From a virus: a stretch of 23,206 nucleotides of DNA. The translations under genes were made by a program, and so were the position numbers. The stretch covers positions 1 through 23,206 of IMG/VR virus record IMGVR_UViG_3300006350_000053. The stretch is one strand, 5' to 3'. Positions 4,296 through 23,206 of the stretch are shown one piece after another. Each line of letters opens with the position of its first letter. Positions within the stretch are counted from its first letter, which is position 1. The notes under the pieces are model-generated. The model saw only the letters and a program-made list of their open reading frames with translations. It made no database searches and was not told the origin of the DNA.

Positions 4296-4490
4296 ATGAA
4301 TGACATCGACATTAATGCTTTAATATCAATCCTTCAAAAGAAGGTAACTGATTTGACTTTAACAAATATCGTTCTAGAAGCGAAAATAAACGATTTAACC
4401 AAACGGTTAAATAGTAGTATAGAAAATTCCAAACAAGAGAATGCTGTAGATGGCAACGAGAATTCAGCCAAAGAGGTCAACGACACCTAA
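4296..4490 (+). CDS. Small coiled-coil protein upstream of giant fibre gene
   Basis: This is a 64-aa protein. Residues 8-42 (from LISILQKKVTDLTLTNIVLE to NDLTKRLNSS) form a long amphipathic heptad pattern, followed by a polar acidic tail (ENAVDGNENSAKEVNDT). It begins 13 bases after the 738-aa gene, with no recognisable Shine-Dalgarno sequence. Its last 41 bases overlap the start of the 2538-aa gene in another frame. The arrangement repeats that of the 73-aa gene: a short coiled-coil gene ahead of fibre-type genes. It could be a trimerisation or assembly factor for the neighbouring fibre, which is inference from position. No known domain is evident. Confidence 0.7.
   Translation: MNDIDINALISILQKKVTDLTLTNIVLEAKINDLTKRLNSSIENSKQENAVDGNENSAKEVNDT
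4393..4412 (+). repeat. Perfect 8-bp inverted repeat (hairpin)
   Basis: ATTTAACC, loop AAAC, GGTTAAAT. It lies inside the 64-aa gene, 37 bases before the ATG of the giant gene. No U-run follows, so it is not a standard intrinsic terminator. It could affect mRNA folding near the downstream start, or be a chance product of AT-rich coding sequence. Confidence 0.3.
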
Positions 4491-7400
4491 TTCTAAACCG
4501 CAAGTAGCGGATCTTAGAAGTAATGAAATTGCCTTAAATATTCCTGATCGTAAGTTATTCATTAATAATAACGGTACGGTTGAGGAATTACTTAATGGTG
4601 CTCCAAATGACGAAACAATCATCACTTCGATGTTCGTTCAGAGCATCACGGATGGTGTTGGGAATACTTGGTTTGTTTCAAAGAATGGTACAGATAAAGC
4701 ACAGGTAGGTGGTAATAATCCTTTAAATACAGCAGCACAAAATACAAATCAGTGGGGAGCAACAGAGGGCACAGCATTTGCAACTATAAAGTATGCAATG
4801 ACATATGCTCAGTCAGGAGATGTTATTGAAGTTTCTGCAGGTGAGTATGAAGAGATATTTCCATTACAAATACCTGCAGGTGTAGCAGTAAGAGGTAGTG
4901 GACAAAAGAATACATTTATTAAACCAACAACTGGAACTAATCAATTAGATTGTTTCCAAATGATTGGTGATTGTATGATTGAAGATCTTACAGTCAAAGA
5001 TTACTTCTATAATAGTAGTAATGATACAGGATATGCATTTAAGTTAAAAAATAATTATAATGTAGCAACAGAAGGTAGAAGACCATATATTAAAGGTGTT
5101 AGTGTAATAACAAAAGGTAGTGTTACCAGTGCAAGTGACCCTCGTGGATTTAATCAAGGGGATGCTGGTAGAGGTGCATTAATTGATGGTTCAGTAGTAT
5201 CTACATCATCTTCAGAAGCAACTTTACTATTCAATGAGGTTACATTTATAGTACCTAATTCTAGAGGTTTATATCTTAAGAATGGTGCAAGAGCAGAGTG
5301 GTTAAACTCATTTACTTACTTTGCACAGGATAGTATTGTTGGAGAGAATCCAGGCGGTACAGGATTTGCTGGACAAGGTAAAATAAGATTAAAACTTAAT
5401 GGTATTACAGGAACATTTAATGTTGGTAATACTATTACACTTAGGAACTCTGGTGGAACTATAATAGCACAAGGAACTATTTCTGGAAATGATGGTACTT
5501 ATATAACAATTGATGGTCAGGGAACTGGAGAATTTGTAGAAGCTGCTGCAAGTACAGATGGTAAATCAATCACAGTAAATGGTGATACTCAGTTATCTAC
5601 AACAGAAAAGAAATTTGGTACTGCATCTGTCTTATTTGATGGAACAGGAGATGATTTATCATTAGCAACATCATCTGATTTCGGTTTTGGAACAGGTGAT
5701 TTTGCTGTAGAAGCATTCATACGACCAACTGCTATTACTGTTCTGGATACAATATTTGATTTTAGAACAGCAAGTCCAGAAGTGGCATTGGCGATTTCTA
5801 TCAATAGTAGTGGTCAAATCGTAGTTAATGTAAATGGTTCTAATGTTATTACTGGTGGATCTATATCTATAAACACATGGGCACACATAGCAGTTTCTAG
5901 AGTAAGTGGAACTACTAGTTTATTTGTTAATGGATCAAGAGTAGGATCTGCATACACTGATTCAAATAACTATGGAAATACAAAACCATTAACGATTGGT
6001 CGTTCAGGAGTAGATGGTGGTAATGCATTTGCTGGTTATGTTGATGAGATAAGAATTTCTAAAGGTGCAGCAAGATATGCTAACGCTGCTTCTATAACTG
6101 TTCCTACTGCAGCATTTGTTGCTGACGTTAATACTTCACTTCTTATACATGCTGATGGATTAAGTGGTAGTACTCAAATACTTGATGGTGGTATTACATC
6201 TCAGGATATTCAATCATCTAGTGGTGGTGTTGCACAGTTTATTACTCTTGCTGACTATACAGATTTTGGTGCAGAATTACGTTCTATAGGTTCTGCTTCA
6301 GTATATGGTACAAGAGGTATTACTGCTGATGGTAAGGGTGTTAGATTAAGATGTATTGTTCATAACTTTGGATATGTCGGTCTAGGTGCTGATCAAAGTA
6401 ATGATATTAGTAATGTAATTCAAGCAAACGAAGTTATTGAACAGAATAGTGGTAGAGCATTATTTACCAGTATGGATCAAAACGGTGACTTCCGTGTTGG
6501 TAATGCATTCTTTGTAGACCAAGAAAGAGGTACGGTTTCCTTCGCTGGTGGAGATTCGGGTGGTACTACTTTTGATCAATTAACTGTTAGTGGTTCGGGT
6601 AACACTACAACTATCTTACCTACACAAATTACAGTAGGTAATTTAGGGTTCTCTGGTGATCAAATTATTAACAATACTACTAATGGTATTGAACTTGGAT
6701 CAACATTAGAGTTATTAGACGGTACATCGGCTGATCCCTCACTCACGTTCATTAATGATAATGATTCAGGAATTTTCAGGGATACTGATTATGTTGAATA
6801 TACTATTAATGATGCAAATGAAGAAACCACAACACCAATAGGTAACCCATGGGCACTTGGATTTAAAGATGCAAGAAAATTACAAATTGGTAGAATTAAC
6901 TGGTCTCTTGTAAATTTAGCTGTTGCTGCTTCAAATATTGGTACTATTACTAATGTTTCTTTTGGTAATAACTATGCTCCAGGTCAACATTCATCTCCAG
7001 TTTCTGGTGGTGCTGGTACAGGAGCAACTTTAAATTATGAAATCTGGCCATTTACTGTAAATATAACCAATAAAGGTAGTGGATATACTCCAGGTACTAC
7101 ACAACAAGAAGATGTTGTTACTAACTCTGGTAATGGAAATGGTGGTAAGATTAATGTAGAAATACATGGTATTGAAACTGCAACTCTTAATGGAGGTAGT
7201 GGTTATTATACTGGTGATCTGGGAACTGGACATACATTTGGTAATATCCCATTCCAAGGTGGAAATGGAACAACAGGTGCTGCTAGTTTAGAAGTTGATG
7301 CTAATGGTGTTATTGTAACTGTAACTATTACACAGCATGGAACAGGTTATAATAATGGTGATGTACTTACTGTTAATAATAGCGATTTAATATACACAAA

Positions 7401-10400
7401 TAACCAAGGTGGAGAATCAACCTCTGGTGGTGCAGGATTTAGTTGGACTTTAACAGAACAACCAGGATCTGTAAAATCAATCACACCTGAGATGAATCCA
7501 TGGGATGGTAAATTCTATAGAGTTAATGACGTAATATCATTTAATGATAGTGTTGCTAGTGGTTCTAACTTTAGTGCAACTGTAACTGCTGTAGGTGTTC
7601 CTCAAACTGCTACTTTAGGTTCTGCAGGAGAAGGATATAATGTTGGTGATAGATTAAACCCTACATTTGTTATTGATACTACTGATCCTGTTGGTGGAGC
7701 ACAATGGAATGAGTCAGCACAAGGTATTTTCAATTATATTACTTACAATGTTAAAGTAGAATCTGGTACTACTCATGGTGGTAACAGTTACTTTATTGAT
7801 AAGTTAGATGGAAATGGTTGGGTAGAACATCCAGATTTAACTCTTGAGCGTGGTTATGCATATTCATTTGTATTCACAGATGGAAATGCTATGGCACATC
7901 CATTCCATTGGTCAACAACTGAAGATGGAACTCATGGTGGTGGTACTAGATACCAAACAAATATTAGAAAGCATTGGGATGCTAATGGTGTAGAAGATGG
8001 ATCACAGATATTTGTAACTGACGTTACTCCAGCTACTCTTCATTATTATTGTGAACAACACCCAAATATGGGTGGTCCTAGTGGTCAAAGAAATCAGGTA
8101 ACCATGTCTGGTACATGGGGAACTGGATTAGCAGTAGATGTTGCTACTCTTTCCAGAAATAAAAAGGTTGAAATATTTACAGATGGTAGTGCAAAATATG
8201 ATGGAAGAATAACCAGTTCAGGTCTTACTGCAACACAGAATGTTCAGATAGAATCTGGTGGAAATTTAGTAACAATTCCAGCTGCTGGTCCTGTTGGTGG
8301 TGATATAACCTGTGGAGGTAACCTCACAGTCGCTGGTAATGCCACTGTAGACGGTGATTTACTCATTAAAGGTACTTCAGAGTTCTCTGCTACTGTAGGG
8401 GGTGCTGGAGAGGTTGCTATAGGTGATGTAAACGCTGATACAGTTAATATTAAAGGTGATGTATTATTCAATCCAGTATATGGAACACCAACACCACCTG
8501 CAACAGTTGGTACTTTAGAATCTGCACAATTATTCTTAGATTTTAGTGAAGCAAAATTTGGATTCTTTGAACATGAACCAAAATCAGAAGTTGATATAAC
8601 AGGTCGTCTTCATAACACAGGTGATGCATTTTTAGCATCTACTCAAGGAGAAACATTACATATAGGTAGAGATCAAGAAACATATACTGCTGCTCCTGGT
8701 ATTGTATTAGATGTTGCAGGAGATACAATAACAACTGGTCATGTAGCAGTTCCAGATGGTGTAGAGGGAGATCCTCAATTTAGATTTACAAGTAATCCAA
8801 AGGTTGGTTTATTTGCTCATAATATTAGTGGTAATGAATATGGAATTTCGTTTAATAATGATTCTGGTAGAACAGTCGAAATAAATTCGGGAGAGAATAA
8901 GTTTTATAGAAATACCGACTGGATTAAAGAATCTGTTGGAACTACAACTCTTACTAGTGGAACTGGATATACAAATGGAATTTATACTAATATAACTGGT
9001 ATTGGTGGTAGTGGTAATGGAATTAAATTTAATTTAACAGTTGCATTTGGAACTACAATATCTAATCCAGGTGTTGGATATACTGATGCCATTTATACTG
9101 GTGTTACCTTAACTTCAGTCACAGGTGCTACAGCAGGTGCATTACAAACTCTTAACATCACTACTGCTGGTAATGATTATGTTAGTGGAACATATACAAA
9201 CGTCGCTTTAAATGGTGGAAATGGATCAAATGCTACTGTTGATGTTATAGTATCTGGAGGAGGAATTACTTCAATTGTACCTAATACTGTTGGTTCTGGA
9301 TATCAAGCATCAGATGCAGTATCTGTTAATGTTGCTGATATTGGTGGATCTCAATTAAGTAATAATTTTACTATATCTGCAGGTGGTTCTGGATATACTG
9401 ATGGAAATTATTTGAACATTCCTTTTGTTAACTCAAGTGGTTCTGGTACAAATGGTAGAGGAAACGTAACAGTTTCTGGTGGAGCAGTTACAGCAGTAAC
9501 AGTACAAACTGGAGGAGGTGGATATACTACCTCAGACGTTTTAACTTTTGATGGAGATGATCTTACAATTGCTGTAATTAATACACTTTCTATAGCAGTT
9601 GCTGGAAGTGGATATGCAAATGGAAATTACACTAATGTTTCTTTATCAGGTGGAAACGGTGCTGGAGCAACTGCTGATATTGTCGTTTCTGGTAATGCAG
9701 TTACTAGTGCAACTATTTCAACTAATGGTGGAGGAACGAACTATCTCGTTGGAGATACCTTAACTTTTGCATCCTCTGCTGTTGGTGGAACTGGTGCTGG
9801 ATTAATTGACACTTTAACAATATCGGCTGCTGGTACTGGATTTACTGATGGAAACTATACAGGTGTAGCACTTTCTGGTGGTAGTGGATCTAATGGAACT
9901 ATTGATATTGAAGTTAGTGGTGGACAAATAACTGCAGCAACTATTAATAATAAAGGTACTGGATATGCTATTGGTAATGTTTTAAGTATTGCTGGATATG
10001 CTGGAGCATCAGTAACAGTAGCAACCTTAGCAAGTCCAGTTGCTGGATCTCTTTCAGTAGCAACTATTACTGTAGGTAGTGGAGCACAAGTAACTCCTGC
10101 TACTGTAATCACTGGTACTGGATCAGTTCTTGAAGTAGGTACTGTTGCTAGTGGTAGTGGTGGAAATGGAGCTGCTGTAGATTTAGTAGTTAGTGGTGGA
10201 CAAGTTACTAGTGCAATTGTAGCGAATGCTGGAACAGGATTCTCTATTGGAGATACAATCAGGGTTAATGATTCTGATATGACTTATGATGATGGTACTG
10301 GATCTATAGTACAATCTGCTGTTCCAACAACACAGATGCTTCTTACCATTGATGGTTTAGGACAAGTAACTAAAGCAACAATTCCAACAACTGGGGAAGG

Positions 10401-12066
10401 AGAAGGATATAAATTAGCTGATGAAATTACAGTTAATGCAAGTGATATTGGATCTGGTGGTAATGGATTTAAAATAACTGTTGGATCTATAAACACTGAA
10501 ACTACTGTTTCTATTAATGAAAGAGAAGGTTCATTAACAGTTAAACAGTTTGATGCTCAGACACTTACTATTGATAATTCATTAGCATTAACTGGTACTG
10601 GAATAAACAAACAAACTGCTGATAATTTTCTATTAACTGCCCTTACAAATAGTTTTGTAGAAATAACTGGACAACAAGCATTTATAGTACCTAGAGGAAA
10701 TAGTGCTCAACGCCCAACAGGTGTTGCAGGTATGATTCGTTATAATAGTGAAGTTAGTCAGTTTGAAGGATATAATGGAACTTCATTTGTATCTTTAGGT
10801 GGCGTGAGAGACGTTGACCTTGATACTTATATAACTGCTGAAAATACAACTAATGCAGATGATGATACGTTTAGATTTTATAATGAAAATGTTAATACTA
10901 TTAAACTTACTAAAGATGTCTTTAGTTTAAATAACGCTGATTTAATTGAATATACTGACCTTAATAATGTTGCTCTTTGGGTAGAAGGAACTGCAGTAAT
11001 TTCACCTTTTGATGCCAGTACATTTGATGGATCTTCAGCATCTATTGTTGATGTAAACGCTGAAACAATTACTCTTACTGGACATAATTTAACACAAGGT
11101 GTAATCGTAACTTATTCTAATGGTGGTGGTAGTGATATTGGTGGACTTGCAAATGGAGTAGATTATCATGTAGAGGTTGTTGATGCTAATACTATTAAAT
11201 TAGCTTCAGATTCTGCTGATCTTGCTAATGATAATTTCGTTAATATTGGTCCTGTAGGAACTGGAACATCTCATACATTTACTCCAACAACTGCTTCTGT
11301 AGTTGATATTCTTTATTACTATGGAGACAACGTATATGCAGTAACAGGAAGTGGTACATTTGATGCTAGTGCTTCTAATTTCCCATCACATACTACAGGT
11401 GCTGTTGCTAATGGAACTGCACAATTAACTTGGAGAAGAACTAGATATGCAAATCCAGTATTTAGAGCAAAAGATGTAGATTATCAAATAGAAACATTTA
11501 ATATTAATACTGCAAACTTGAAATTTAGTAGTACTTCTACTAATGCTTATATCGGTAGTAATATAGATTCTATAGATTTTGGATTTGATAACACTGGAGA
11601 TAAAGTATTATTTGGAGCAACTAAAACTGGTGGATTATTTGTTAACACTGGTTATGTTGCTGGTACAACTTCTAACACAGAAATTTTAAATTATGAATTA
11701 AATGAATTTACTTTAAAAGATACTAAAGTATTATCAGCAGATGCAACTCTTGATACATCAGTTGGTAATTCAGTATCATTAACATTTAAACCATATACTG
11801 AAGGTTTCTCTGGTAAGTTTATGGTTGAGATAAAAGATAACTCAGCAACACCTAAGAGACAATTCTCAGAAATTAGTTTCCTTTGTGTTTCTGATGGTTC
11901 AGCAATAATTTACACTGAGGTAAGTAAGATATATACTGATGTGGTCCTATGTGATGTTTCTGTGGATATTGTTGGTAATAATATCACATTAATTGTTCAA
12001 GATTCTCAAAACTCCTCAACGGTTGTCTATACCGTTAAGGCAATACACAATAGCATTCTAGCATAA
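4450..12066 (+). CDS. Giant mosaic tail-fibre protein with lectin and cupredoxin domains (2538 aa)
   Basis: Domains read in order. Residues 1-50: Mtd-like start (RIQPKRSTTPNSKPQVADL, ending KLFINNNGTVEEL). About 70-385: right-handed beta-helix (TWFVSKNGTD, FATIKYAMTYAQSGDVIEV, GEYEEIFPLQIPAGVAVRG). 385-560: ConA/LamG-like lectin. 575-700: beta-helix resumes (SVYGTRGITADGKGVRLRC). 845-1100: GxGY-type repeats. 1105-1210: cupredoxin-like domain. 1286-1345: solenoid (GDITCGGNLTVAGNATVDGD). 1498-2015: second GxGY array. 2085 onward: RPTGVAGMIRYNSEVSQFEG and GVRDVD, a C-terminal block familiar from cyanophage fibres, ending AIHNSILA. The ATG at 4450 lies inside the upstream 64-aa gene and starts the conserved RIQPKRS domain, which supports it. 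The stop overlaps the next start (TAATG). A host-binding or virion-surface fibre is likely. No signal peptide or membrane helix is seen. The start is at least moderately sure; the architecture is by inspection. Confidence 0.85.
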   Translation: MATRIQPKRSTTPNSKPQVADLRSNEIALNIPDRKLFINNNGTVEELLNGAPNDETIITSMFVQSITDGVGNTWFVSKNGTDKAQVGGNNPLNTAAQNTNQWGATEGTAFATIKYAMTYAQSGDVIEVSAGEYEEIFPLQIPAGVAVRGSGQKNTFIKPTTGTNQLDCFQMIGDCMIEDLTVKDYFYNSSNDTGYAFKLKNNYNVATEGRRPYIKGVSVITKGSVTSASDPRGFNQGDAGRGALIDGSVVSTSSSEATLLFNEVTFIVPNSRGLYLKNGARAEWLNSFTYFAQDSIVGENPGGTGFAGQGKIRLKLNGITGTFNVGNTITLRNSGGTIIAQGTISGNDGTYITIDGQGTGEFVEAAASTDGKSITVNGDTQLSTTEKKFGTASVLFDGTGDDLSLATSSDFGFGTGDFAVEAFIRPTAITVLDTIFDFRTASPEVALAISINSSGQIVVNVNGSNVITGGSISINTWAHIAVSRVSGTTSLFVNGSRVGSAYTDSNNYGNTKPLTIGRSGVDGGNAFAGYVDEIRISKGAARYANAASITVPTAAFVADVNTSLLIHADGLSGSTQILDGGITSQDIQSSSGGVAQFITLADYTDFGAELRSIGSASVYGTRGITADGKGVRLRCIVHNFGYVGLGADQSNDISNVIQANEVIEQNSGRALFTSMDQNGDFRVGNAFFVDQERGTVSFAGGDSGGTTFDQLTVSGSGNTTTILPTQITVGNLGFSGDQIINNTTNGIELGSTLELLDGTSADPSLTFINDNDSGIFRDTDYVEYTINDANEETTTPIGNPWALGFKDARKLQIGRINWSLVNLAVAASNIGTITNVSFGNNYAPGQHSSPVSGGAGTGATLNYEIWPFTVNITNKGSGYTPGTTQQEDVVTNSGNGNGGKINVEIHGIETATLNGGSGYYTGDLGTGHTFGNIPFQGGNGTTGAASLEVDANGVIVTVTITQHGTGYNNGDVLTVNNSDLIYTNNQGGESTSGGAGFSWTLTEQPGSVKSITPEMNPWDGKFYRVNDVISFNDSVASGSNFSATVTAVGVPQTATLGSAGEGYNVGDRLNPTFVIDTTDPVGGAQWNESAQGIFNYITYNVKVESGTTHGGNSYFIDKLDGNGWVEHPDLTLERGYAYSFVFTDGNAMAHPFHWSTTEDGTHGGGTRYQTNIRKHWDANGVEDGSQIFVTDVTPATLHYYCEQHPNMGGPSGQRNQVTMSGTWGTGLAVDVATLSRNKKVEIFTDGSAKYDGRITSSGLTATQNVQIESGGNLVTIPAAGPVGGDITCGGNLTVAGNATVDGDLLIKGTSEFSATVGGAGEVAIGDVNADTVNIKGDVLFNPVYGTPTPPATVGTLESAQLFLDFSEAKFGFFEHEPKSEVDITGRLHNTGDAFLASTQGETLHIGRDQETYTAAPGIVLDVAGDTITTGHVAVPDGVEGDPQFRFTSNPKVGLFAHNISGNEYGISFNNDSGRTVEINSGENKFYRNTDWIKESVGTTTLTSGTGYTNGIYTNITGIGGSGNGIKFNLTVAFGTTISNPGVGYTDAIYTGVTLTSVTGATAGALQTLNITTAGNDYVSGTYTNVALNGGNGSNATVDVIVSGGGITSIVPNTVGSGYQASDAVSVNVADIGGSQLSNNFTISAGGSGYTDGNYLNIPFVNSSGSGTNGRGNVTVSGGAVTAVTVQTGGGGYTTSDVLTFDGDDLTIAVINTLSIAVAGSGYANGNYTNVSLSGGNGAGATADIVVSGNAVTSATISTNGGGTNYLVGDTLTFASSAVGGTGAGLIDTLTISAAGTGFTDGNYTGVALSGGSGSNGTIDIEVSGGQITAATINNKGTGYAIGNVLSIAGYAGASVTVATLASPVAGSLSVATITVGSGAQVTPATVITGTGSVLEVGTVASGSGGNGAAVDLVVSGGQVTSAIVANAGTGFSIGDTIRVNDSDMTYDDGTGSIVQSAVPTTQMLLTIDGLGQVTKATIPTTGEGEGYKLADEITVNASDIGSGGNGFKITVGSINTETTVSINEREGSLTVKQFDAQTLTIDNSLALTGTGINKQTADNFLLTALTNSFVEITGQQAFIVPRGNSAQRPTGVAGMIRYNSEVSQFEGYNGTSFVSLGGVRDVDLDTYITAENTTNADDDTFRFYNENVNTIKLTKDVFSLNNADLIEYTDLNNVALWVEGTAVISPFDASTFDGSSASIVDVNAETITLTGHNLTQGVIVTYSNGGGSDIGGLANGVDYHVEVVDANTIKLASDSADLANDNFVNIGPVGTGTSHTFTPTTASVVDILYYYGDNVYAVTGSGTFDASASNFPSHTTGAVANGTAQLTWRRTRYANPVFRAKDVDYQIETFNINTANLKFSSTSTNAYIGSNIDSIDFGFDNTGDKVLFGATKTGGLFVNTGYVAGTTSNTEILNYELNEFTLKDTKVLSADATLDTSVGNSVSLTFKPYTEGFSGKFMVEIKDNSATPKRQFSEISFLCVSDGSAIIYTEVSKIYTDVVLCDVSVDIVGNNITLIVQDSQNSSTVVYTVKAIHNSILA
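5602..6135 (+). other. ConA/LamG-like lectin domain within the 2538-aa protein
   Basis: Residues about 385-562 show the jelly-roll lectin pattern: KKFGTASVLFDGTGDDLSLA, then DFGFGTGDFAVEAFIRPTA, WAHIAVSRVSGTTSLFVNGS, and GYVDEIRISKGAARY. The order of a FDGxxDyl strand, a DFxxExFIRP strand, a WxHIAVSR strand with FVNG, and a YVDEIRIS strand is the Laminin_G_3 signature. Such domains commonly bind glycans, so this is a likely surface-sugar-binding module. It is bracketed by beta-helix sequence, so it appears to be inserted in the helix. Confidence 0.8.
7735..8080 (+). other. Cupredoxin-like (type-1 copper) domain within the 2538-aa protein
   Basis: Residues about 1100-1210 read as a small beta-barrel: NVKVESGTTHGGNSYFIDKL, then DLTLERGYAYSFVFTDGNAM, AHPFHWSTTEDGTHGGGTRY and a C-terminal YYCEQHPNMGG. 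His1150 or His1153, Cys1201, His1204 and Met1207 match the ligand layout of blue-copper proteins. The C-x2-H-x2-M spacing is the amicyanin spacing. A conserved cupredoxin-like segment with THGGG also occurs in other marine phage proteins as I remember them. Copper binding is inferred from the residues. Confidence 0.72.
8936..10290 (+). repeat. GxGY beta-repeat array in the 2538-aa protein
   Basis: Units of about 72-76 residues follow the plan L(T/S)I..AG(S/T)G(Y/F).DGNYTNV.LSGG.G..AT.DIVVSGG.(V/I)T.ATI...GTGY..GD.L. Clear unit starts are LNI at 9151, FTI at 9367, LSI at 9586 and LTI at 9814. A first degenerate unit begins near 8936 and weaker ones follow to about 10290. Related units occur at 7050-7640, in the 738-aa protein at about 3840-3990 and in the second giant at 21335-22380 and 23000-23206. 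Confidence 0.8.
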
Positions 12067-12878: not shown

Positions 12879-15800
12879 ATGGCTTTAGAATTAAATGCTG
12901 ATAAGCAGATTATTCAGTCAGACAAACTCAAAATTAAAAACGACACGAGTGTCAGAATTGATTTAGGGGGAGGTGCTGATGAGAAAGCGGCTATTTTTGG
13001 AAATTTAACAGCGGATGCTGATAAACTTGTTCGTATAGGTATAAACACATTAAATCCTCAATATGAATTAGACGTTGAAGGACAGATAAGAACTACTACA
13101 TCTATTATTTCAGATACTGCTCGTATCGCAAACTTGGATATTGATACGATTGTTAACCCAAGTTTAGCATTAAGAGCACCAGTTTTAAATACTTTTACTG
13201 ATCCTAACACTAACGAGTTACTATTTCCTCGCTCTACAACTCCTGCATATAGTGACGACAGTAATAAGATTGCTACAACAAACTTCGTATATAATATTGC
13301 TACTAACGACGTTGGTGGTCGTATTTACGTTTCAGCACAGATAGGTTCTGATACATTTGATGGTCGTTCTGCTACTAAACCAGTTAGAACAATTAAGAGA
13401 GCAACACAACTCGCTGCTTCAACTCCTGATAAAGAAACAATTATTGTTGCAGGTGGTGATTATCTAGAAGATAACCCAATTTCTCTACCAGATTTATGTT
13501 CTGTTGTTGGTGATAATATTCGTTTGACAATTTGCCGACCAGCAAATCCTGGTAAACATATGTTCAAGGCATCTGATGAGAACTATGTTACTGGTATTAC
13601 TTTCAGAGATCAGATTGATGGAAATAATGTACCAATTAAAACTTGGAGTTATGCATATGTATTTGATGATAAACAGAGATTCTATTATCCAAAATCTTTA
13701 GGTGGTCAATACGGTAGAACATTTAACTTAGGTCATAAAATATCTGCTGCCCAAGAATGGAAATTAACGTTCAACTCTAATGGTGGTGGAGTATTATTAG
13801 TTCCTGGTATCGTATTAACATCAGTTACTGGTGGTACTGGTACAATTTCAGAAGTTGTATTTGATACTGGTACAGATCAAGCTGGATATGTTGTTATACA
13901 AAATATTACTGGTTTGATTGAATCAACTGGTTCTGTATATACTTACGATGCAAATGATCCAGTAGTAAACTATAACTTATCAGTTTCTAGTGGTGAACAG
14001 TTAACTCCTGATGGACAGGTTGTTAAACATCAAACTACACATACCTCTTATAGTGTATCTAAAGTTAAATATGATCCATTATTATATCCAAATGGTTTAA
14101 TAGTAACTGTAACTGGTACAGGTGTTTATCATGATTTTGAAGTTGGTCAATATGTTAGATTTACTAATTTCCCAGATGCTGGACTATATGCTGACCTTGA
14201 TAGGTTTAATGGTCGTCAATATGTTTCACATAGAATTGAAACTACTGATGGATTCAGTACTCAATTTGTAGTATATAAAGATAATCCAACAGATCTTGGA
14301 GCAATAGGTGCTCCTGGTGGAGAATATGGTGTTACTAACTTCGCTGTTACTGTAACTTCTGATGATCACTATGTAACATTCTCTCTAGACAACTCTCCTC
14401 GTAAGTTTGTAACGTCTACAAAGAGTGCTAATAGATATCTTGATGCTACTGATTTAATTGATAGAAACAAAGCAGGTATTGCAGATCAAGCATTAAAGAG
14501 AGCAAAGAAAGAATATCCAGCATTAATGTGTGCTGATGAGGCAAAATGTATTAATGATATTGGTTATATTATAGATGCTGTTAACTATGACCTTACATGG
14601 GGTGGTAATGCAGCAACTAAAGAAGCAGCTGAATACTATTATACAGGTGGTGTATTAGATCATTTAGTTGGATCATTAAAAGAAAGTACATATACATTTG
14701 CACAAGCAAGAGACCTGTCTATACAGGCAATGAGAAACCAACTTGAGTATGTTAGTAGTAGCACTAAAACTTCTGTAACCAAGACAGTAGGATTTGGTGG
14801 AAATGCTATTTGGGATAATGAAAGATTTGTTTCAGTTAGTCAAAGTGGTATTGCTACTTCTGCTGATGGAGTAACTTGGACTTCTCAAACAGTTGCTGGT
14901 AGTCCCTATTTAAGAGATGTATTATTTAATAAATGGGCAGTTGGTGAAAGAGGAGTACCAGAATATATCGCTGTTGGTCATGGTGGTGTAATATTTACAT
15001 CTAATAATACAGTAGATTGGTATAGTAAAACTACACCTAATACAAAAGATTTAAAAGCAGTAGCTTATGATGGAACAACTTATGTTGTTGTTGGTGAAGA
15101 TGGTACAGTATTAACATCTCAAAATGGTAATACTTGGGTTGCACAAACTAGTGGAACAACTAATGATCTTGAAGATATCATATACAATGATGATTATGAT
15201 GCATTCTATGCTGTTGGTAATAATGATACAATACTTAAATCTACAAATTCTGGTGTTACTTGGACTGCATTAGAAAGTGGTACAATTTCACAAAATATTC
15301 AAAGTATATCTTGGTTTGAAGGAACCATGGTTGCTGGTGTTGCACGAGCACATATTCTAATAAGTGATGATGGTGGAGATACTTGGGAAACTAATACTAT
15401 AACAAGTACTGTTACATCTGATCGTAACCAAGATGCTGCTGATTTATTATTAAAGAACAAGAAATTACTTGCTGCACAAGGTTTATTTAATTACTTGAAT
15501 AATGGTGGTTCTGGTCATACAGTGCCTACAGGAAACATGGCATGTATTGATGATATTGTAGATGTAGTAGAAGCAATAGCTCATGACTTAAGACATGGTG
15601 GAAACTATAGAACATATAAGGCAGCAAGTTACTATGTTAGTACAAACGCAACTGCTGGAGAAGAAGCAGAAGCAGTAGGTGCATTAGACGCTGCTATTGT
15701 ATTAGCAAAATCTATAATTCGTAACGTATCAATAACAGTTAACTATGTTAACGATGCAACTTATGTTGCTTCTCTTGAGACACCATATCAAGCACTTACA

Positions 15801-18800
15801 CAATATACAAAACCAGATATTACTCTAGATTACTCAGAGGGTACTAGACATTCTGCTACTAATGCAACTTATGATCCAGACACTGGTGTAGTAGTATTAA
15901 CTATTGCTAATCATGGATTTGCAGATGGAGAGTATATTAAAATTGATACTGATGCATTGAAATTTACTTGTTCAATGGATGGTAATTATTCTACTCATTC
16001 ATATCCAAGAGCAGAAGATCCAGCAAATGATGCATGGTTACAAATATTTGGTAAAACAAATGATACTATAAGTGTATTTGTTGGTAGAGCATTTAATACA
16101 TCATACTCACCTACTGGAGGTTCATACGATCCAGAAACTGGTATAATGACTCTTACTGTTGGTGAAAACAGATTTAAAGCACCTTCATCTCACACAGTAA
16201 CTTTCGCTGATTATAATCCTAATACAGGTATTATGACAGTGACAATTCCACATCATGGATTCTATGAAAATGATCATGTTAAATTTAATAATGGTGCTGT
16301 AACCTTCACATGTACTCAGGGTGGTGGTACTCATTCATATCCACGCTCTACAGACCCTGCTAGTAATCGCTGGTTGAACATATGGAATGTAACCAGAGAT
16401 ACATTTGATGTACAAGTTTTAGATACTGTACCTTCTACAAACACAACTGTTCATACATTCTCTAGTGCACTATCAGGTGGTCTTAAGCATTCATCTGAAA
16501 ATGTAAAACTTGCTACTGGGGGAATATCATTTAGTTGTAATCCTGGTGGTGGAGTTCAGACAGTTGCATATCCAAGAAACACTGTTGATTCTCTAAACAC
16601 TCCAACAGGTGCAACATATGATCCTGCAACTGGTGTATTCCAAACAACAATTAATGGTCATGGTTTAAAGAATGGTGACTGGGTTAAATTTGCCACAGGA
16701 ACATTTAGATTCCAATGTACAATGGATGGTGGTAGTTCTCCTAAGGATTATCCACGTGCAACTGATCCAGCAAATGATGCATGGTTAAAAGTAACTAACG
16801 TAACTACTAACACATTTGAAGTTAATGTTGGTAAATCGCCTATAGTTGGACATGTAGCATCTGCAGGTTCTTATGATGCAGCAACAGGTGATCTTGTACT
16901 TAATATAGGTTCTCATACTTTAGCACCAGGCACTGCTATTAAGATTGCTAAAGAATCTTTAGAATGGACATGTGGTATGGATAATAATACCGCTACTAAG
17001 GTATATCCTAGAACTACTGATCCAGCATATAATACTGCTCTTGATATTACAGCAGCAGACGCAACTTCAATTACAGTTAACGTTGGACAATCTCCTTTAG
17101 TTAATCATGATATAACAAATGCTACTTATGATCCACTAACTGGTGTAGTAGTAATGACACTTGTTGGTACTCATGGTTTAACACAAGGCGAAAGTATTAG
17201 AATTGGTGATGATAAATTAACCTTTACTTGTACAATGGATGGTAATGCTACCAACCATACTTATCCAAGAGAAGGTGATCCTGCATATCAAACAGCAGTT
17301 CCAATTACTAATGTATCTGGTCAAGATATTACAGTCAATGTTGGAACATCTCCGATAGTCACTAAGACAGTAACAAATGCAATATACAATCCAAATACTG
17401 GTGAATTAATATTAACAATTCCTAATCATCAATTAAGACAAGGAACAAATATTAAACTAGCCACTGAATCATTAATATTCACATGTACACTTGATGGTAA
17501 CGTAACACAGAAAGCATACCCTCGTGCATCTGGAGAAGGTGCAAATTCTGGTGTTGCTGATTATGCATATGATAGACCTTTACAAATACAAAATACAACA
17601 ACTGATACAATTACTATCAATGTTAACTCTGGTGGTAATCCTATCAGTGATTTATCCAATCATACATTTATATCTGGTAATAATGCTGTTGTAACAGGTG
17701 GTAATTACACTCATACATGGGCAGGTGGAACTTCTACTGCTGCTGTTATATCAGGTGGTAACTATCCTCATACATTCCAGGCTGTACAAGGTTTAACTCC
17801 TAGTGATGCTGCATACAATCCTACTACTGGTAAATTAACTTTAACATTTACCGATGCACATGATTTAACTGCTGATGATTATGTAAAACTTGATGAAAAT
17901 GCATTAACCTTTACTTGTACAATGGATGCTGGTGCTTCAAATAAACAGTATCCACGTTCTACTGATCCGATTTATGGTAAGTATGTACAACTAGAGAACG
18001 TAACTACAAATACATTTGATCTTGATGTTGGTACTTCTCCACTTGTAACATTCACTCCTACTGACGGTGAATATACACCATCAACTGGTGTTATGACACT
18101 AGAGATTGGTAAGCATGATCTTAAAGTTGGTACAAATATTAAGTTAGCTGCTAATTCAATATCATTCAAGTGTGGTTTAGATAACTTTACTACTGCTAAA
18201 TCATATCCTCGTGCAAGTGGAACAGGAGCAAATGCAGGTACTCCTGACGCTGCATATGATGTACCAGTTACTATTACAGATACAACAAAAACTTCTATTA
18301 CAATTAATGTTGGTACTTCATCCGACACATCTGAGCATAGATTTGATAGTGCAACATCAGGTGCTGTAATAAGTGGTGGTGGATATGTTCATACATTTAT
18401 TGATTCAGCAAATAATTGTGTTCATAGAGCACAAGTATTATCAGGTGGTGGATATGCTCATACATTTGTATCTTCACCTGGTGGTGGAGTAAGTAAGAAG
18501 AGAGATAGAGCATTTGATACAAGTATTCCTGTAGTTGGTAAAACTTCTACTACTGTAACATTATTTGTTGGTATAAGCACAAGTGTTTATGCACATACTT
18601 TTGTCAGTGCAACTACTGGTGCATTGATAGCAGGTGGTAATTATGTTCACACCTTCTTATCAAGTGATGTAAACGGTATTATTAAAAATGGTCCTGAAAG
18701 TCCAACTACAGCATGTACCAATGTTATTAACTCAATAGTTACTTTAAACACTATTGTTACTTCTGCTATAACAAATGATAATTTAAACCATGCTACTTTA

Positions 18801-21800
18801 ACAGCATCTGTTGGTCATGAAAGATGGATAGGAAATCCTTCAAATGAGGTATATTCACCAGGAAGATTAGTTCATGATGGAAATAGATTCTGGGTCACTG
18901 TAAGTAACGTTTACACAGCTGGAAGATCTTACGTTTTAACATCTGAAGATAAAGGAAGAACATGGAATGTTGAAGTAGAAGGTTATGCAAATGCATCATG
19001 GAGAGGTGTTGCATTTAGTGATACTATTGGTGTATTCTTAGGATATAAAGATGGTCCAAGTACTACAGGTCCTCAAGGTTTCATAATTACTGGAACAGGT
19101 AGTGAATTTACTGATCCAAATGGTCTAACACAATTTAATACAACAAACACAGTATTCTCAGATAATACAATATCTAATACTTATGATACTAATAGAATTA
19201 GAGCATGTGATAATGTAAGTAACTCAATATTTACTTTATGGAATATTGTTATTGATAGGATTAATGGAAGAACAATTCCTGCAACATCTTATGCATCTTC
19301 ATATTTCCTTGATAGTAATAACAAATTCTTTACTGTAGGTCATGCATTTGATGATCTACCTATTATTGAAGTATCACCTTATATCTTCAACTCTTCTGTA
19401 ATATCATTCCTTGGTGGTAATGGTTGTGAAATTGATGGTGCTAAGTGTGCTACTCCTAACGTAAAACGTCCTAACTTACCTCCACAGGGTAAGTCAATGG
19501 TTGCTGCTGCATTCACGATTATCTCATTTGGTGGTACTGGTTATAGAGTTATCAATGATGGTTATACACAGTTGGTGTCTGTGTTCTGTATCTTTACACA
19601 AGATGGTGCTATTGTAGAAAGTGGTGGTTATGCATCACTAACTAACTCAGCATCTAACTTTGGTACTTTTTCATTAAGATCAACAGGTGTAAGAGAAGAA
19701 GCATATAGTTTTGATAAAGGTGTTGTTGATAACGTAACATTTACTGATGTAGGAACTCCTAAGTTTACTGTTACAGGTCTTGGTGCTGCACCTCTAGAAC
19801 ATTATATTATTAGTCCTGGTGGATTTGATTTACAATTACAATCTGGACAAAACCCCAGATACTTTATTGAAAATACTATATCAGCAACACCTACTAAACC
19901 AATTACTGCTGAGATACAGGCAGACCTACCTATGAATGTAAGGGGTAACTTTAACCGCTTTACAGATTCATTTGATTTAATTACAAATAATGCTAGGTAT
20001 ATTGCAGAAGAAGCATACTTTAAAACACTCCAAACTACATCTAATCCTTTAGATCAAGATAGAAATAAGTGTATTCGTGACACAGAAGAAATAGTTAAAG
20101 CATGGGCAACAGACCTTAAGTTTGATGCTAACGATGCTACATGGGATGCTGCCAAATTATATGTAAGTGGAACTTCTATTCAACATATTTCTGGATATGT
20201 TGCAGCAACTAAAGAAGTTCTTGATGAAGCATTAGTAATATGTAAGAAAGCAATTAATAACCAACTTAAATTAAAAGGAACTACATTAACTACTGCTGAA
20301 TCAAATGCTAATTATTACGTAGCACAGTGGACAGATGAAGTTCCATATGTTGATTATACTATTACACATGATGTAAGTACTGGTACTGAGTATGAGAATG
20401 GTGATTGTACTAATGTTCAAAGTGCACTAACAACTCTTAATACATTATTTGATGAGATTATTGATAATCCATCTGTTACAACTCCTATGCCTTCAACAGC
20501 AGTTAGGGATGATGGATTCTTCCAGATCAATGCAGTAAATAAAAACAAACTAATTGATCATAAAATTGATATAATTAGACCTTCTATTTGTAACTCCTCA
20601 TCTCATACATGGGAATTTTCTGGATCTGGTAATGACTACAATGCACTACCTCAAAATGGTGGTACTAGAGGTTCAGATAACACTGGAGATTTTGAACAGG
20701 TATCTCAACAAAATGGTCGTGTTTATGCCTCAGGTACTGATGAACTTGGTGACTTTAAGATTGGATACTTTGCTAATGTAGAGAACAGAACTGGTAACAT
20801 CACATTCGGTGGTACTGTTACAATTTCTGAAGTTGAATTCTTGAAGATTAAGGGTAACAACGTTGTTATCACAGGATTCTCTCCAGATAATACTTTAGGT
20901 GCTCTAGAGTTAGGTGGATCAGGTGCTAATGATTCATTACTACCAACACAGAAAGCAGTTAAAGATTATATCTCTAACCAGTTAGGTCAATACTTAGGAC
21001 GTACATATTCTACTGTTCCAACACCTAATGCTCTTGTTCAATTAGATGCTTCTGGTCGTATTAATATTGACCAGTTACCTGCATTAAGACCATTTAATAT
21101 CTTTACGGTTGCAGATGCTGCAGCAAGATATGCACTTGAAGGTCCTCTTGCTGGTGATATTGTTATTCAAAATGACAATACAATTTCCTACATTATGAAC
21201 AATGACTTGGAAAGTCAGATTCTTGAATTCCAACCTGCATCAAACCATGTATTTTCTACTAGTGATATTATACTTTCTACAGGTACTGGATCACAGGGTC
21301 AGGTAACATCATGGATACCAGGACGTATTAAACAGATTGTTGTTGCTAATGGTGGATCTGGATATTTAAGTGGAGATACAATTACAATCTCATCACCTGG
21401 CGGTGGTGGTACACAGGCAACTGGTACTCTTACTATTAATGGTGGACAGATTACTGGTGTAACTCTAAACAATAATGGACAAGGATATTACACACCACCA
21501 TCAACTGCTGGTAGCACAATTACAATTAATACTTCAACAGGATCTAATGCTGTTCTTACTTCAATTATTAGATCTAGATTAGAAGTTGATATATTAAACT
21601 CAATCAAGGCACTTGCTACTGACACGATTGATGATAAAACAACTCCAACTGCAATAACAATTCAGTTAACAGATGTTATTAACACTTCTGCTTCTAACGC
21701 TAATAACTGGGTTCAGTTGACATCATCTACAATTGATGCTTCATTCATTACAACAGGTGTTATTAACGTTGCACGTCTTGGTAATATATCTTCTGCATAT

Positions 21801-23206
21801 CCTGCAAACTCACTAACTTACTTAAGAGGTGACTCACTATTTGCTCCTGCAATGGCATCACAAAGAATTGCAGAAGATTCACCAATTGTATTAGGTTCAA
21901 ATAACACTGCAAGTGATTACATCAAACAAATTCAAATTGTTGATGGTGGTGAAGGATATACAACAGGAGTATATACTGACACTCTAATGTTAGGTGGTGG
22001 TGGATCATCTACAGGTCTTAAAGGAACATTTAACGTTGCTAACGGTGTTGTAAGTAAAGTTAACGTACTTACAGGTGGTACTGGATATACAACTGCACCT
22101 ACAGTTGTATTCAAAGATAACTGGACAGATCCTGCAAACCCAGCATTCCTTAATAATATTAAGGCAGTTGCAATAGTAAATGGTGGGGCAGTTACTGCTG
22201 TTCATATGACTGATGGTGGTACAGGATTAGGATCAAACACTCCTTTAGTTGAGTTTGTAGGTGGAGGTGGTGTAGACGCTACAGCAACATCTGTTACTAA
22301 AGATGGTGCTATTAGATTTGTTACTATCACTGATGGTGGTAATAACTACACTGGAGATTTCACTGTAACTCCTAACCCAACTTCAATTGGAACTTCTCCA
22401 ACTATAGCTGCTAATTTAAAAGGTGTTCTTGCAACTGTACCTAAGATTTTTGGTGACTCTGTAATTGATATTAATAGAGTTGATGATCTTACAGTTGCTG
22501 CAAACGATTTTGGTAACTTAGGTGTTATTAGATTACGTAAGGATCAATTTATATTTGAAACTAATGGTGCTGCAACACTAAGAACTGGTCAAGGTTCAGG
22601 TCTTGATGCTGACACACTTGACACTAATGATTCAAGTTACTTTACAAATGCATCAAATATACAAGCTGGTCGTCTATCTCCAGATAGATTGAGTGGAGAT
22701 TACACTATTAATGTTTTAGGTAACGCTTCCACATCTACCTTGATGAATGCTTCTGATACAAGAACTTCTATCTTTAACCCAGAAAACTTTGCTTCTGGTA
22801 TGATTTTATCATGGAAGAGTAACTCTCAAGGTTATAATGCAAACCAATTCCTTGATGATGGTGGTTTATATCATAGTGTACTTACAACACGTCGCTCAGG
22901 TGCTTCTACCGACTTCTCAGCAGGTGCTTTAGGGCAGATAGCACAGACAGATAATAATAACATTTACATTAGAAATAGTGGTCCTAACTTTGTTGGATCA
23001 TTAGCTATCACCAACGCAGGTGCTGGTTATAAAAATGGAACTTATAATAACATACTACTAGGTGGTGGTGAAGGTTATGGTCTAAAAGCAAATATAGTTG
23101 TTTCTGGTGGATCTATATCTTCTATCACTCTTGTAGATGGTGGTTGGGGATATAACGAAGGTGGTACTGCTTCTGGTACATTTATTGCAGATCTACCTTA
23201 TGAATG
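12879..23206 (+). CDS. Second giant mosaic tail-fibre protein, start present, 3' end beyond window (at least 3442 aa)
   Basis: The frame stays open from ATG 12879 to the edge (3442 whole codons plus two bases). N-terminus: LVRIGINTLNPQYELDVEG, the G(I/V)GT.NP...LDVEG motif of fibre proteins, then SDDSNKIATTNFVYNI. About 146-270: beta-helix (GRIYVSAQIGSDTFDG, ETIIVAGGDYLEDNPISLP). 525-626: helical module with Cys557. 630-843: Asp-box beta-propeller. 846-956: second helical module, Cys889. 995-1815: eight 85-residue FTC/YPR repeats. 1940-2140: Cys helices flanking a second propeller fragment. 2177-2310: beta-helix (SNFGTFSLRSTGVREEAYSF). 2363-2468: third helical module, Cys2398. 2640-2780: scaffold with LPTQKAVKDYISNQL and ALEGPLAGDIVIQND. 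2820-3170 and 3375 onward: GxGY repeats. Motifs are typical of T4-like cyanophage fibre proteins. No signal peptide is seen. The function is likely host contact; a final oligomerisation tip may lie outside the window. Confidence 0.85.
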   Translation, partial: MALELNADKQIIQSDKLKIKNDTSVRIDLGGGADEKAAIFGNLTADADKLVRIGINTLNPQYELDVEGQIRTTTSIISDTARIANLDIDTIVNPSLALRAPVLNTFTDPNTNELLFPRSTTPAYSDDSNKIATTNFVYNIATNDVGGRIYVSAQIGSDTFDGRSATKPVRTIKRATQLAASTPDKETIIVAGGDYLEDNPISLPDLCSVVGDNIRLTICRPANPGKHMFKASDENYVTGITFRDQIDGNNVPIKTWSYAYVFDDKQRFYYPKSLGGQYGRTFNLGHKISAAQEWKLTFNSNGGGVLLVPGIVLTSVTGGTGTISEVVFDTGTDQAGYVVIQNITGLIESTGSVYTYDANDPVVNYNLSVSSGEQLTPDGQVVKHQTTHTSYSVSKVKYDPLLYPNGLIVTVTGTGVYHDFEVGQYVRFTNFPDAGLYADLDRFNGRQYVSHRIETTDGFSTQFVVYKDNPTDLGAIGAPGGEYGVTNFAVTVTSDDHYVTFSLDNSPRKFVTSTKSANRYLDATDLIDRNKAGIADQALKRAKKEYPALMCADEAKCINDIGYIIDAVNYDLTWGGNAATKEAAEYYYTGGVLDHLVGSLKESTYTFAQARDLSIQAMRNQLEYVSSSTKTSVTKTVGFGGNAIWDNERFVSVSQSGIATSADGVTWTSQTVAGSPYLRDVLFNKWAVGERGVPEYIAVGHGGVIFTSNNTVDWYSKTTPNTKDLKAVAYDGTTYVVVGEDGTVLTSQNGNTWVAQTSGTTNDLEDIIYNDDYDAFYAVGNNDTILKSTNSGVTWTALESGTISQNIQSISWFEGTMVAGVARAHILISDDGGDTWETNTITSTVTSDRNQDAADLLLKNKKLLAAQGLFNYLNNGGSGHTVPTGNMACIDDIVDVVEAIAHDLRHGGNYRTYKAASYYVSTNATAGEEAEAVGALDAAIVLAKSIIRNVSITVNYVNDATYVASLETPYQALTQYTKPDITLDYSEGTRHSATNATYDPDTGVVVLTIANHGFADGEYIKIDTDALKFTCSMDGNYSTHSYPRAEDPANDAWLQIFGKTNDTISVFVGRAFNTSYSPTGGSYDPETGIMTLTVGENRFKAPSSHTVTFADYNPNTGIMTVTIPHHGFYENDHVKFNNGAVTFTCTQGGGTHSYPRSTDPASNRWLNIWNVTRDTFDVQVLDTVPSTNTTVHTFSSALSGGLKHSSENVKLATGGISFSCNPGGGVQTVAYPRNTVDSLNTPTGATYDPATGVFQTTINGHGLKNGDWVKFATGTFRFQCTMDGGSSPKDYPRATDPANDAWLKVTNVTTNTFEVNVGKSPIVGHVASAGSYDAATGDLVLNIGSHTLAPGTAIKIAKESLEWTCGMDNNTATKVYPRTTDPAYNTALDITAADATSITVNVGQSPLVNHDITNATYDPLTGVVVMTLVGTHGLTQGESIRIGDDKLTFTCTMDGNATNHTYPREGDPAYQTAVPITNVSGQDITVNVGTSPIVTKTVTNAIYNPNTGELILTIPNHQLRQGTNIKLATESLIFTCTLDGNVTQKAYPRASGEGANSGVADYAYDRPLQIQNTTTDTITINVNSGGNPISDLSNHTFISGNNAVVTGGNYTHTWAGGTSTAAVISGGNYPHTFQAVQGLTPSDAAYNPTTGKLTLTFTDAHDLTADDYVKLDENALTFTCTMDAGASNKQYPRSTDPIYGKYVQLENVTTNTFDLDVGTSPLVTFTPTDGEYTPSTGVMTLEIGKHDLKVGTNIKLAANSISFKCGLDNFTTAKSYPRASGTGANAGTPDAAYDVPVTITDTTKTSITINVGTSSDTSEHRFDSATSGAVISGGGYVHTFIDSANNCVHRAQVLSGGGYAHTFVSSPGGGVSKKRDRAFDTSIPVVGKTSTTVTLFVGISTSVYAHTFVSATTGALIAGGNYVHTFLSSDVNGIIKNGPESPTTACTNVINSIVTLNTIVTSAITNDNLNHATLTASVGHERWIGNPSNEVYSPGRLVHDGNRFWVTVSNVYTAGRSYVLTSEDKGRTWNVEVEGYANASWRGVAFSDTIGVFLGYKDGPSTTGPQGFIITGTGSEFTDPNGLTQFNTTNTVFSDNTISNTYDTNRIRACDNVSNSIFTLWNIVIDRINGRTIPATSYASSYFLDSNNKFFTVGHAFDDLPIIEVSPYIFNSSVISFLGGNGCEIDGAKCATPNVKRPNLPPQGKSMVAAAFTIISFGGTGYRVINDGYTQLVSVFCIFTQDGAIVESGGYASLTNSASNFGTFSLRSTGVREEAYSFDKGVVDNVTFTDVGTPKFTVTGLGAAPLEHYIISPGGFDLQLQSGQNPRYFIENTISATPTKPITAEIQADLPMNVRGNFNRFTDSFDLITNNARYIAEEAYFKTLQTTSNPLDQDRNKCIRDTEEIVKAWATDLKFDANDATWDAAKLYVSGTSIQHISGYVAATKEVLDEALVICKKAINNQLKLKGTTLTTAESNANYYVAQWTDEVPYVDYTITHDVSTGTEYENGDCTNVQSALTTLNTLFDEIIDNPSVTTPMPSTAVRDDGFFQINAVNKNKLIDHKIDIIRPSICNSSSHTWEFSGSGNDYNALPQNGGTRGSDNTGDFEQVSQQNGRVYASGTDELGDFKIGYFANVENRTGNITFGGTVTISEVEFLKIKGNNVVITGFSPDNTLGALELGGSGANDSLLPTQKAVKDYISNQLGQYLGRTYSTVPTPNALVQLDASGRINIDQLPALRPFNIFTVADAAARYALEGPLAGDIVIQNDNTISYIMNNDLESQILEFQPASNHVFSTSDIILSTGTGSQGQVTSWIPGRIKQIVVANGGSGYLSGDTITISSPGGGGTQATGTLTINGGQITGVTLNNNGQGYYTPPSTAGSTITINTSTGSNAVLTSIIRSRLEVDILNSIKALATDTIDDKTTPTAITIQLTDVINTSASNANNWVQLTSSTIDASFITTGVINVARLGNISSAYPANSLTYLRGDSLFAPAMASQRIAEDSPIVLGSNNTASDYIKQIQIVDGGEGYTTGVYTDTLMLGGGGSSTGLKGTFNVANGVVSKVNVLTGGTGYTTAPTVVFKDNWTDPANPAFLNNIKAVAIVNGGAVTAVHMTDGGTGLGSNTPLVEFVGGGGVDATATSVTKDGAIRFVTITDGGNNYTGDFTVTPNPTSIGTSPTIAANLKGVLATVPKIFGDSVIDINRVDDLTVAANDFGNLGVIRLRKDQFIFETNGAATLRTGQGSGLDADTLDTNDSSYFTNASNIQAGRLSPDRLSGDYTINVLGNASTSTLMNASDTRTSIFNPENFASGMILSWKSNSQGYNANQFLDDGGLYHSVLTTRRSGASTDFSAGALGQIAQTDNNNIYIRNSGPNFVGSLAITNAGAGYKNGTYNNILLGGGEGYGLKANIVVSGGSISSITLVDGGWGYNEGGTASGTFIADLPYE
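14457..14756 (+). other. Cys-containing helical module 1 in the second giant
   Basis: Residues 527-626. The core reads KCINDIGYIIDAVNYDLTWG followed by GN..T..AAEYY. Aligned copies centre on Cys557 (here), Cys889 (15420-15746, CIDDIVDVVEAIAHDLRHGG) and Cys2398 (19965-20280, CIRDTEEIVKAWATDLKFDA). The shared pattern is C-I-x-D-x3-[IV]-[IV]-x-A-x3-D-L. It is a helix-rich spacer recurring among T4-like cyanophage fibre proteins. Confidence 0.65.
14769..15407 (+). other. Asp-box beta-propeller in the second giant
   Basis: Residues about 631-843 have five Asp-box-like turns: SADGVTW (S661), SNNTVDW (S708), SQNGNTW (S747), STNSGVTW (S788) and SDDGGDTW (S829). Spacings are 47, 39, 41 and 41 residues, as expected of one blade each. 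Intervening strands (YIAVGHGGVIFTS, YVVVGEDGTVLTS, FYAVGNNDTILKS) match the YCF48/sialidase-type BNR blade. No catalytic residues of sialidases are evident, so a binding role is more likely than an enzyme. Confidence 0.78.
15861..18325 (+). repeat. Tandem ~85-residue FTC/YPR repeats in the second giant
   Basis: Eight readable copies plus one degenerate copy follow the plan Y(D/N)PxTGxxxLTI..H.L..G..IK(L/I)....L.FTC.MDG......YPR..DPAY......ITNVT..TI.VNVG.SP.V. The opening Tyr codons are at 15870, 16125/16212, 16617, 16872, 17127, 17385, 17814 and 18072. Steps are mostly 255-258 bases. Two longer steps reflect a damaged copy near 16480 and an insertion at 17640-17800. Each clear copy holds one Cys before the YPR. 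Confidence 0.82.
17697..18656 (+). repeat. GGxYxHTF short repeats in the second giant
   Basis: Five copies of GG(N/G)Y(T/P/V/A)HT(F/W) occur at 17697, 17754, 18375, 18444 and 18633. They sit in larger units HxFxSAxxGAVIxGGxYxHTF. Copies at 18375-18398 and 18444-18467 share 23 of 24 bases, 69 bases apart. They lie between and after the last FTC/YPR copies. Confidence 0.7.
18813..19107 (+). other. Second, isolated propeller fragment in the second giant
   Basis: Residues about 1979-2076 contain RLVHDGNRFWVTVSN, SYVLTSEDKGRTWNVEVEG (Asp-box S2022) and WRGVAFSDTIGVFLGYKDG. These look like one to two blades of the same type as residues 631-843. Cys helices (C1946 and C2110) bracket it. Whether it completes the distant propeller or forms its own domain cannot be told from sequence. 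Confidence 0.6.
21335..22380 (+). repeat. GxGY beta-repeats in the second giant
   Basis: Units include IVVANGGSGYLSGDTITIS (21338), VTLNNNGQGYYTPPSTAG, QIVDGGEGYTTGVYTDTLML (21931) and VNVLTGGTGYTTAPTVVF, with MTDGGTGLG and TDGGNNYTG in decayed forms. A further unit begins near 23004 (AITNAGAGYKNGTYNNILLG) and runs to the edge. They follow the plan of the array in the first giant. Confidence 0.72.

Follow-up and report, generated by a model that had tools for sequence, protein, structure and literature searches.

A giant virion protein of 2538 aa encoded by a viral fragment, most likely of a marine cyanophage, contains an internal domain that is predicted to fold as a cupredoxin and carries four candidate ligands of a type-1 (blue) copper site in the spacing of amicyanin. 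The most probable reading, to which we assign a probability of about 60%, is that this domain is an accessory module of a protein of the tail or baseplate region, loaded with copper and serving as a metal-stabilised surface contact, and not a free electron carrier. We infer copper to be the metal. Electron transfer or copper-linked adsorption by the module is no more than a possibility.

The window, that is, the whole stretch of DNA analysed here, comprises 23,206 nucleotides of an IMG/VR viral fragment (23.2 kb, record IMGVR_UViG_3300006350_000053) with the G+C content of 36%. Its genes follow the order of genes PHM2_088 to PHM2_096 of Prochlorococcus phage P-HM2, and thus the fragment most likely comes from a T4-like phage of the Prochlorococcus type and represents its tail/baseplate module. 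The giant protein (positions 4450..12066, plus strand) is the orthologue of PHM2_094, annotated as gp7 or baseplate wedge initiator, with 44% identity across residues 1-743 (blastp). Orthologues found by tblastn in phages are annotated as baseplate wedge proteins of the gp7 type, and the PHROG matches are to baseplate wedge subunit families, those to tail-fibre and head families being weaker. On the other hand, the classical position of gp7 in P-HM2, between gp6 and gp8, is taken by another giant protein, PHM2_086. Thus, judging by sequence comparison, "gp7" is a homology label, and a tail fibre is still possible. The initial annotation had called the protein a giant phage tail fibre; it is indeed a giant virion protein, with "fibre" a possible label that is not established.

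The same protein contains a LamG/concanavalin-A-like lectin domain at residues 398-540 (positions 5641..6069, plus strand; Pfam PF13385, E 3e-20, over the cut-off), a candidate carbohydrate-binding part. The 3442-aa ORF at positions 12879-23204, encoding a phage tail protein, has a weak match to the Phycobilisome family PF00502 at residues 512-582 (E 6e-4, 20.2 bits with the cut-off at 22.2). When the giant protein is aligned with contig IMGVR_UViG_3300012953_000076, residues 895-1394 and 2395-2538 are 85-97% identical, and residues from about 1395 to 2394 mostly 50-68% identical with many synonymous changes. This mosaic suggests recombination or a variable region. In this comparison with the closest contig, special conservation of the domain over its flanks was rejected, as the whole stretch to about residue 1394 is nearly identical and the divergence lies beyond.

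A profile built from 18 phage relatives, the window sequence being one of them, locates a single domain at residues 1096-1211 (positions 7735..8082, plus strand; E 1e-40), close to the span 1100-1210 proposed earlier from the letters of the sequence. The motif AHPFHW begins at residue 1149 and YYCEQHPNMGG at residue 1199, so the ligand residues are where the initial annotation had placed them. The protein contains only 7 Cys, 25 His and 14 Met. Its sole match to C-x2-H-x(2-4)-M is CEQHPNM, which provides Cys1201, His1204 and Met1207 in the C-x2-H-x2-M spacing of amicyanin; given the Cys, His and Met counts, about 0.0004 matches to this pattern are expected by chance.

The cupredoxin assignment, made at first by eye, agrees with structure prediction. 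The AlphaFold2 model of the window domain, based on an alignment of 117 relatives from public viral contigs, is confident (pLDDT 88.2, pTM 0.82), as is the model of a canonical relative, L035 (pLDDT 96.6, pTM 0.89). The top Foldseek match of the window domain in PDB is a Cu nitrite reductase (E 6e-4, probability 1.0), and other matches include pseudoazurin with an engineered amicyanin loop, rusticyanin, CueO, small laccases and plastocyanin, as well as SO1698, described in PDB as an aspartic peptidase. Most of the best matches are cupredoxins, with modest TM-scores of 0.34-0.48 to the best solved structures. L035 matches rusticyanin (E 4e-4, TMq 0.59) and Cu nitrite reductase (TMq 0.61), and among its 50 PDB matches listed almost all are proteins of the cupredoxin fold. 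Both models thus fall among the Greek-key beta sandwiches of the cupredoxin fold superfamily, with the best-match TMq of 0.44-0.61 and probability 1.0 to copper proteins. Among viral models, 66 match the fold of the domain at E 0.001 or better, and most of these are cyanophage virion proteins. Small beta-sandwich proteins of giant viruses, Pithovirus LCPAC302/304 and Marseillevirus LCMAC201 (BFVD models), also match it, with TMq 0.51-0.63.

The predicted topology places His1150 just before an earlier strand, Cys1201 at the end of a strand, and His1204 and Met1207 in the loop that follows. Judged by this model, the order of the ligands and their strand and loop context fit a type-1 copper site. 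His1150 is followed by Pro in the window domain, and in plastocyanin-type proteins the first His ligand is followed by Asn. Conservation was measured in 141 domains from viral contigs, gathered with two patterns that leave out the ligand residues. The first predicted ligand, His1150 (positions 7897..7899, plus strand), is H in 94% of copies; the predicted thiolate ligand Cys1201 (8050..8052, plus strand) is C in 94%; His1204 (8059..8061, plus strand) is H in 93%; and Met1207, the predicted axial ligand (8068..8070, plus strand), is M in 91%. The equatorial positions are each at least 92% conserved. The axial position is Met in 128 of the 141 copies, and in some copies that keep the equatorial His, Cys and His it is Leu, His or Tyr; the axial ligand of type-1 copper sites is known to tolerate replacement. 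The initial annotation had offered both His1150 and His1153 as ligands. The former stands together with Cys1201, His1204 and Met1207. The latter was rejected, as this position is H in at most one copy of 141 and is occupied by R, K, A, L or Y in relatives, with Arg or Lys in most.

All four ligands are kept in 126 of the 141 viral copies. They are also kept in 23 of the 24 copies from database phages, the exception being S-WAM2, which has lost all four. Wherever Cys is absent, the second His is absent too (9/9; Fisher p 2e-13, kinship ignored). Copies without Cys or the second His retain 76% of the 22 other conserved positions, compared to 92% in intact copies; of the ligands, the same copies keep 15%, which in part results from the way they were selected. 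Mapped on a tree from which the ligand columns were excluded, each ligand shows about 7-8 changes. The supported independent pairs of ligand changes nearly all go in the same direction, but there are only 3-4 of them, too few for a sign test to reach significance. Ligands that are kept or lost together within a mostly retained framework form, as far as sequence conservation can tell, the pattern of a metal site and not of a fold relic. The suggestion that selection acts on the four ligands as a metal site is thus well supported: instead of varying freely while the fold is kept, they are retained or dropped as a set, with about three quarters of the framework preserved in the copies that lose them.

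Single ligand-less copies occur beside ligand-bearing ones in the same protein in P-HM2 gp7 (L010), S-CAM22 (L018) and P-SSM7 (L020). In these three proteins module copies adjoin a YHYH domain (PF14240), and in S-CAM22 and P-SSM7 the ligand-less copy seems to be inserted inside it. This association was rejected as a general rule, being seen at only four database phage loci and in no viral contigs. The P-HM2 orthologue of the window protein, PHM2_094 (L436), contains at residues 1389-1482 a divergent copy with a His and a shifted C-x2-H-x3-M motif, which matches the profile weakly (30 bits).

The module is not confined to one type of protein. In database phages it occurs in tail fibres of podoviruses and myoviruses, gp9-type connectors, gp7-type proteins and other virion proteins, and also in a protein encoded near the portal gene. 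Several proteins contain two or three copies, in some cases in tandem. These phages infect Synechococcus, Prochlorococcus and Pelagibacter, and the cultured ones among them include P-HM2, S-TIM5 and HTVC028P. When bacterial and archaeal genomes were scanned with a sequence pattern, the module turned up in SAR86, Bacteroidetes, Verrucomicrobia, marine archaea and others. The cellular proteins often are either short, with a lipoprotein-like start, or very large, with DUF11, GEVED or lectin domains. Both settings look extracellular, which agrees with a module exposed at surfaces and loaded with copper outside the cytoplasm. The module is a mobile accessory of many marine phage virion proteins and exported bacterial proteins.

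The course of events that we infer as most likely is as follows. The apo-domain would fold as the virion assembles, and copper would be taken up outside the cytoplasm, either when the cell lyses or in seawater. Once bound, the metal would lock the loop joining the last two strands, and the module on the virion surface would serve as a metal-stabilised domain for contacts with proteins or cell surfaces, a role akin to that of the Ig-like decorations of other phages.

Several other explanations have to be weighed against copper-loaded surface contact. The site may hold a different metal, such as zinc, as a purely structural clamp in the virion. Zinc can occupy the Cys/His/His/Met sets of apo-cupredoxins, and virions are assembled in the cytoplasm of the host, which keeps free copper at a very low level. 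However, an amicyanin-like C-x2-H-x2-M loop whose axial residue varies from Met to Leu, His or Tyr is typical of copper sites, and the proteins closest in structure bind copper, which makes another metal rather improbable. The domain also might be a cupredoxin-like beta sandwich that serves as a structural spacer, with the ligand residues conserved merely for packing. Copies that have no ligands and yet keep the fold do exist in S-WAM2, P-HM2 gp7, S-CAM22 and P-SSM7. However, the loss of the ligands as a set while most of the framework stays, the retention of all four in the large majority of copies, and the paucity of cysteines in the rest of the protein leave this explanation very doubtful.

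It is also conceivable, if unlikely, that copper or its redox chemistry is used for infection: the site would bind a copper factor of the host outer membrane or periplasm, or sense redox state, and so aid adsorption or the triggering of the tail, as a copper counterpart of the proposed iron Trojan horse. Phages of Synechococcus, Prochlorococcus and Pelagibacter do carry the module in tail, fibre and baseplate proteins that face the host, its ligands are conserved as a coupled set, and an iron precedent has been proposed for the HxH motifs of tail fibres (PMC11705849). On the other hand, its occurrence in gp9-type connectors and in the product of the portal-adjacent gene shows that receptor-binding tips are not its only location, some copies have dropped the site, and no partner was found. 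A broader version, in which virion type-1 copper centres function in the infection by many marine phages as a copper lure or a redox-sensitive tail switch, with phages carrying copper in the ocean and adsorption determined by the state of copper at the surface of the host, seems quite improbable. Finally, free plastocyanin (petE) is a known auxiliary gene of cyanophages (PMC5083919), and one could imagine that the domain is an auxiliary metabolic plastocyanin that serves host electron transport during infection. However, the domain lies in the interior of a virion protein of 2538 aa whose gene belongs to a tail cluster, and nothing points to a separate, free product. This position and the size of the protein led us to reject the reading as a metabolic plastocyanin gene derived from the host, and the explanation deserves next to no credence.

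If the metal-stabilised contact module indeed binds copper, then virions of phages of Prochlorococcus, Synechococcus and Pelagibacter, which are among the most abundant cells on Earth, hold a redox metal in their structural proteins. Since the four ligands persist in hundreds of related surface proteins of marine phages and bacteria, copper may be present in the particles of many marine phages, which would affect the speciation of copper in the sea, the stability of virions and their adsorption. The analysis also provides a concrete annotation for a widespread module that PHROG groups at present into families with no cupredoxin label. Metagenome surveys could mistake such virion domains for plastocyanin-like metabolic genes. 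The literature searched yielded no paper that describes a cupredoxin, plastocyanin-like or blue copper domain in a virion or structural protein of a phage; most subscription journals were outside the scope of this search, and therefore the absence of a report is not a proof of novelty.

The relation of the domain to known families is indirect. The window domain scores 13.2 bits with PF00127, below the Pfam gathering cut-off of 21.2, and the phage relatives tested also score below it. Two bacterial domains exceed the cut-off, L422 with 27.5 bits and L428 with 31.8 bits, and the phage profile aligns with both at 46-48 bits (E about 1e-11). Thus the profile scores tie the phage family to the plastocyanin/azurin family PF00127 transitively, via bacterial intermediates. 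Direct profile comparison with a three-sequence set of pseudoazurin/halocyanin-like proteins is weak (hhalign probability 7%). The amicyanin family TIGR02657 (NCBIfam) does not match the window domain and matches one of the 18 relatives at E 0.012. No solved phage structure is matched at the sequence level. Scores below the cut-off, the bridging bacterial domains and the weak direct comparison together indicate that this is a distinct, so far unlabelled family of the cupredoxin superfamily, and not a formal member of PF00127 or of the amicyanins.

With the amicyanins and pseudoazurins of PF00127 (Copper-bind), the phage domain shares the predicted cupredoxin fold, the His...Cys-x2-His-x2-Met order and the amicyanin spacing. 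Unlike these proteins, the window domain scores under the cut-off, has His-Pro in place of His-Asn, resides inside a giant virion protein and belongs to a family with a conserved signature of its own, DGTHGGG...EYTTGVT. Its best structural neighbours in PDB, rusticyanin and the cupredoxin domain of three-domain Cu nitrite reductase, serve in electron transport or as parts of enzymes, and share little sequence identity with the phage domain (12-19%). The At5g54830-like domain PF25489, named for a plant protein, matches several phage copies in the same region at scores below the threshold (at best 20.3 bits against 27), and its kinship to the phage domain is unproven. The closest parallel among phage proteins is found in the HxH iron-binding motifs of the tail fibres of T4 (gp37) and alterophage R22Y (PMC11705849). 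As with the candidate site of the phage domain, a metal site is situated in a tail protein and a relevance to marine trace metals has been proposed; however, these fibres are trimeric and bind iron octahedrally, whereas the domain described here combines a predicted cupredoxin fold with a predicted cysteine-thiolate ligand, neither of which occurs in the HxH fibres.
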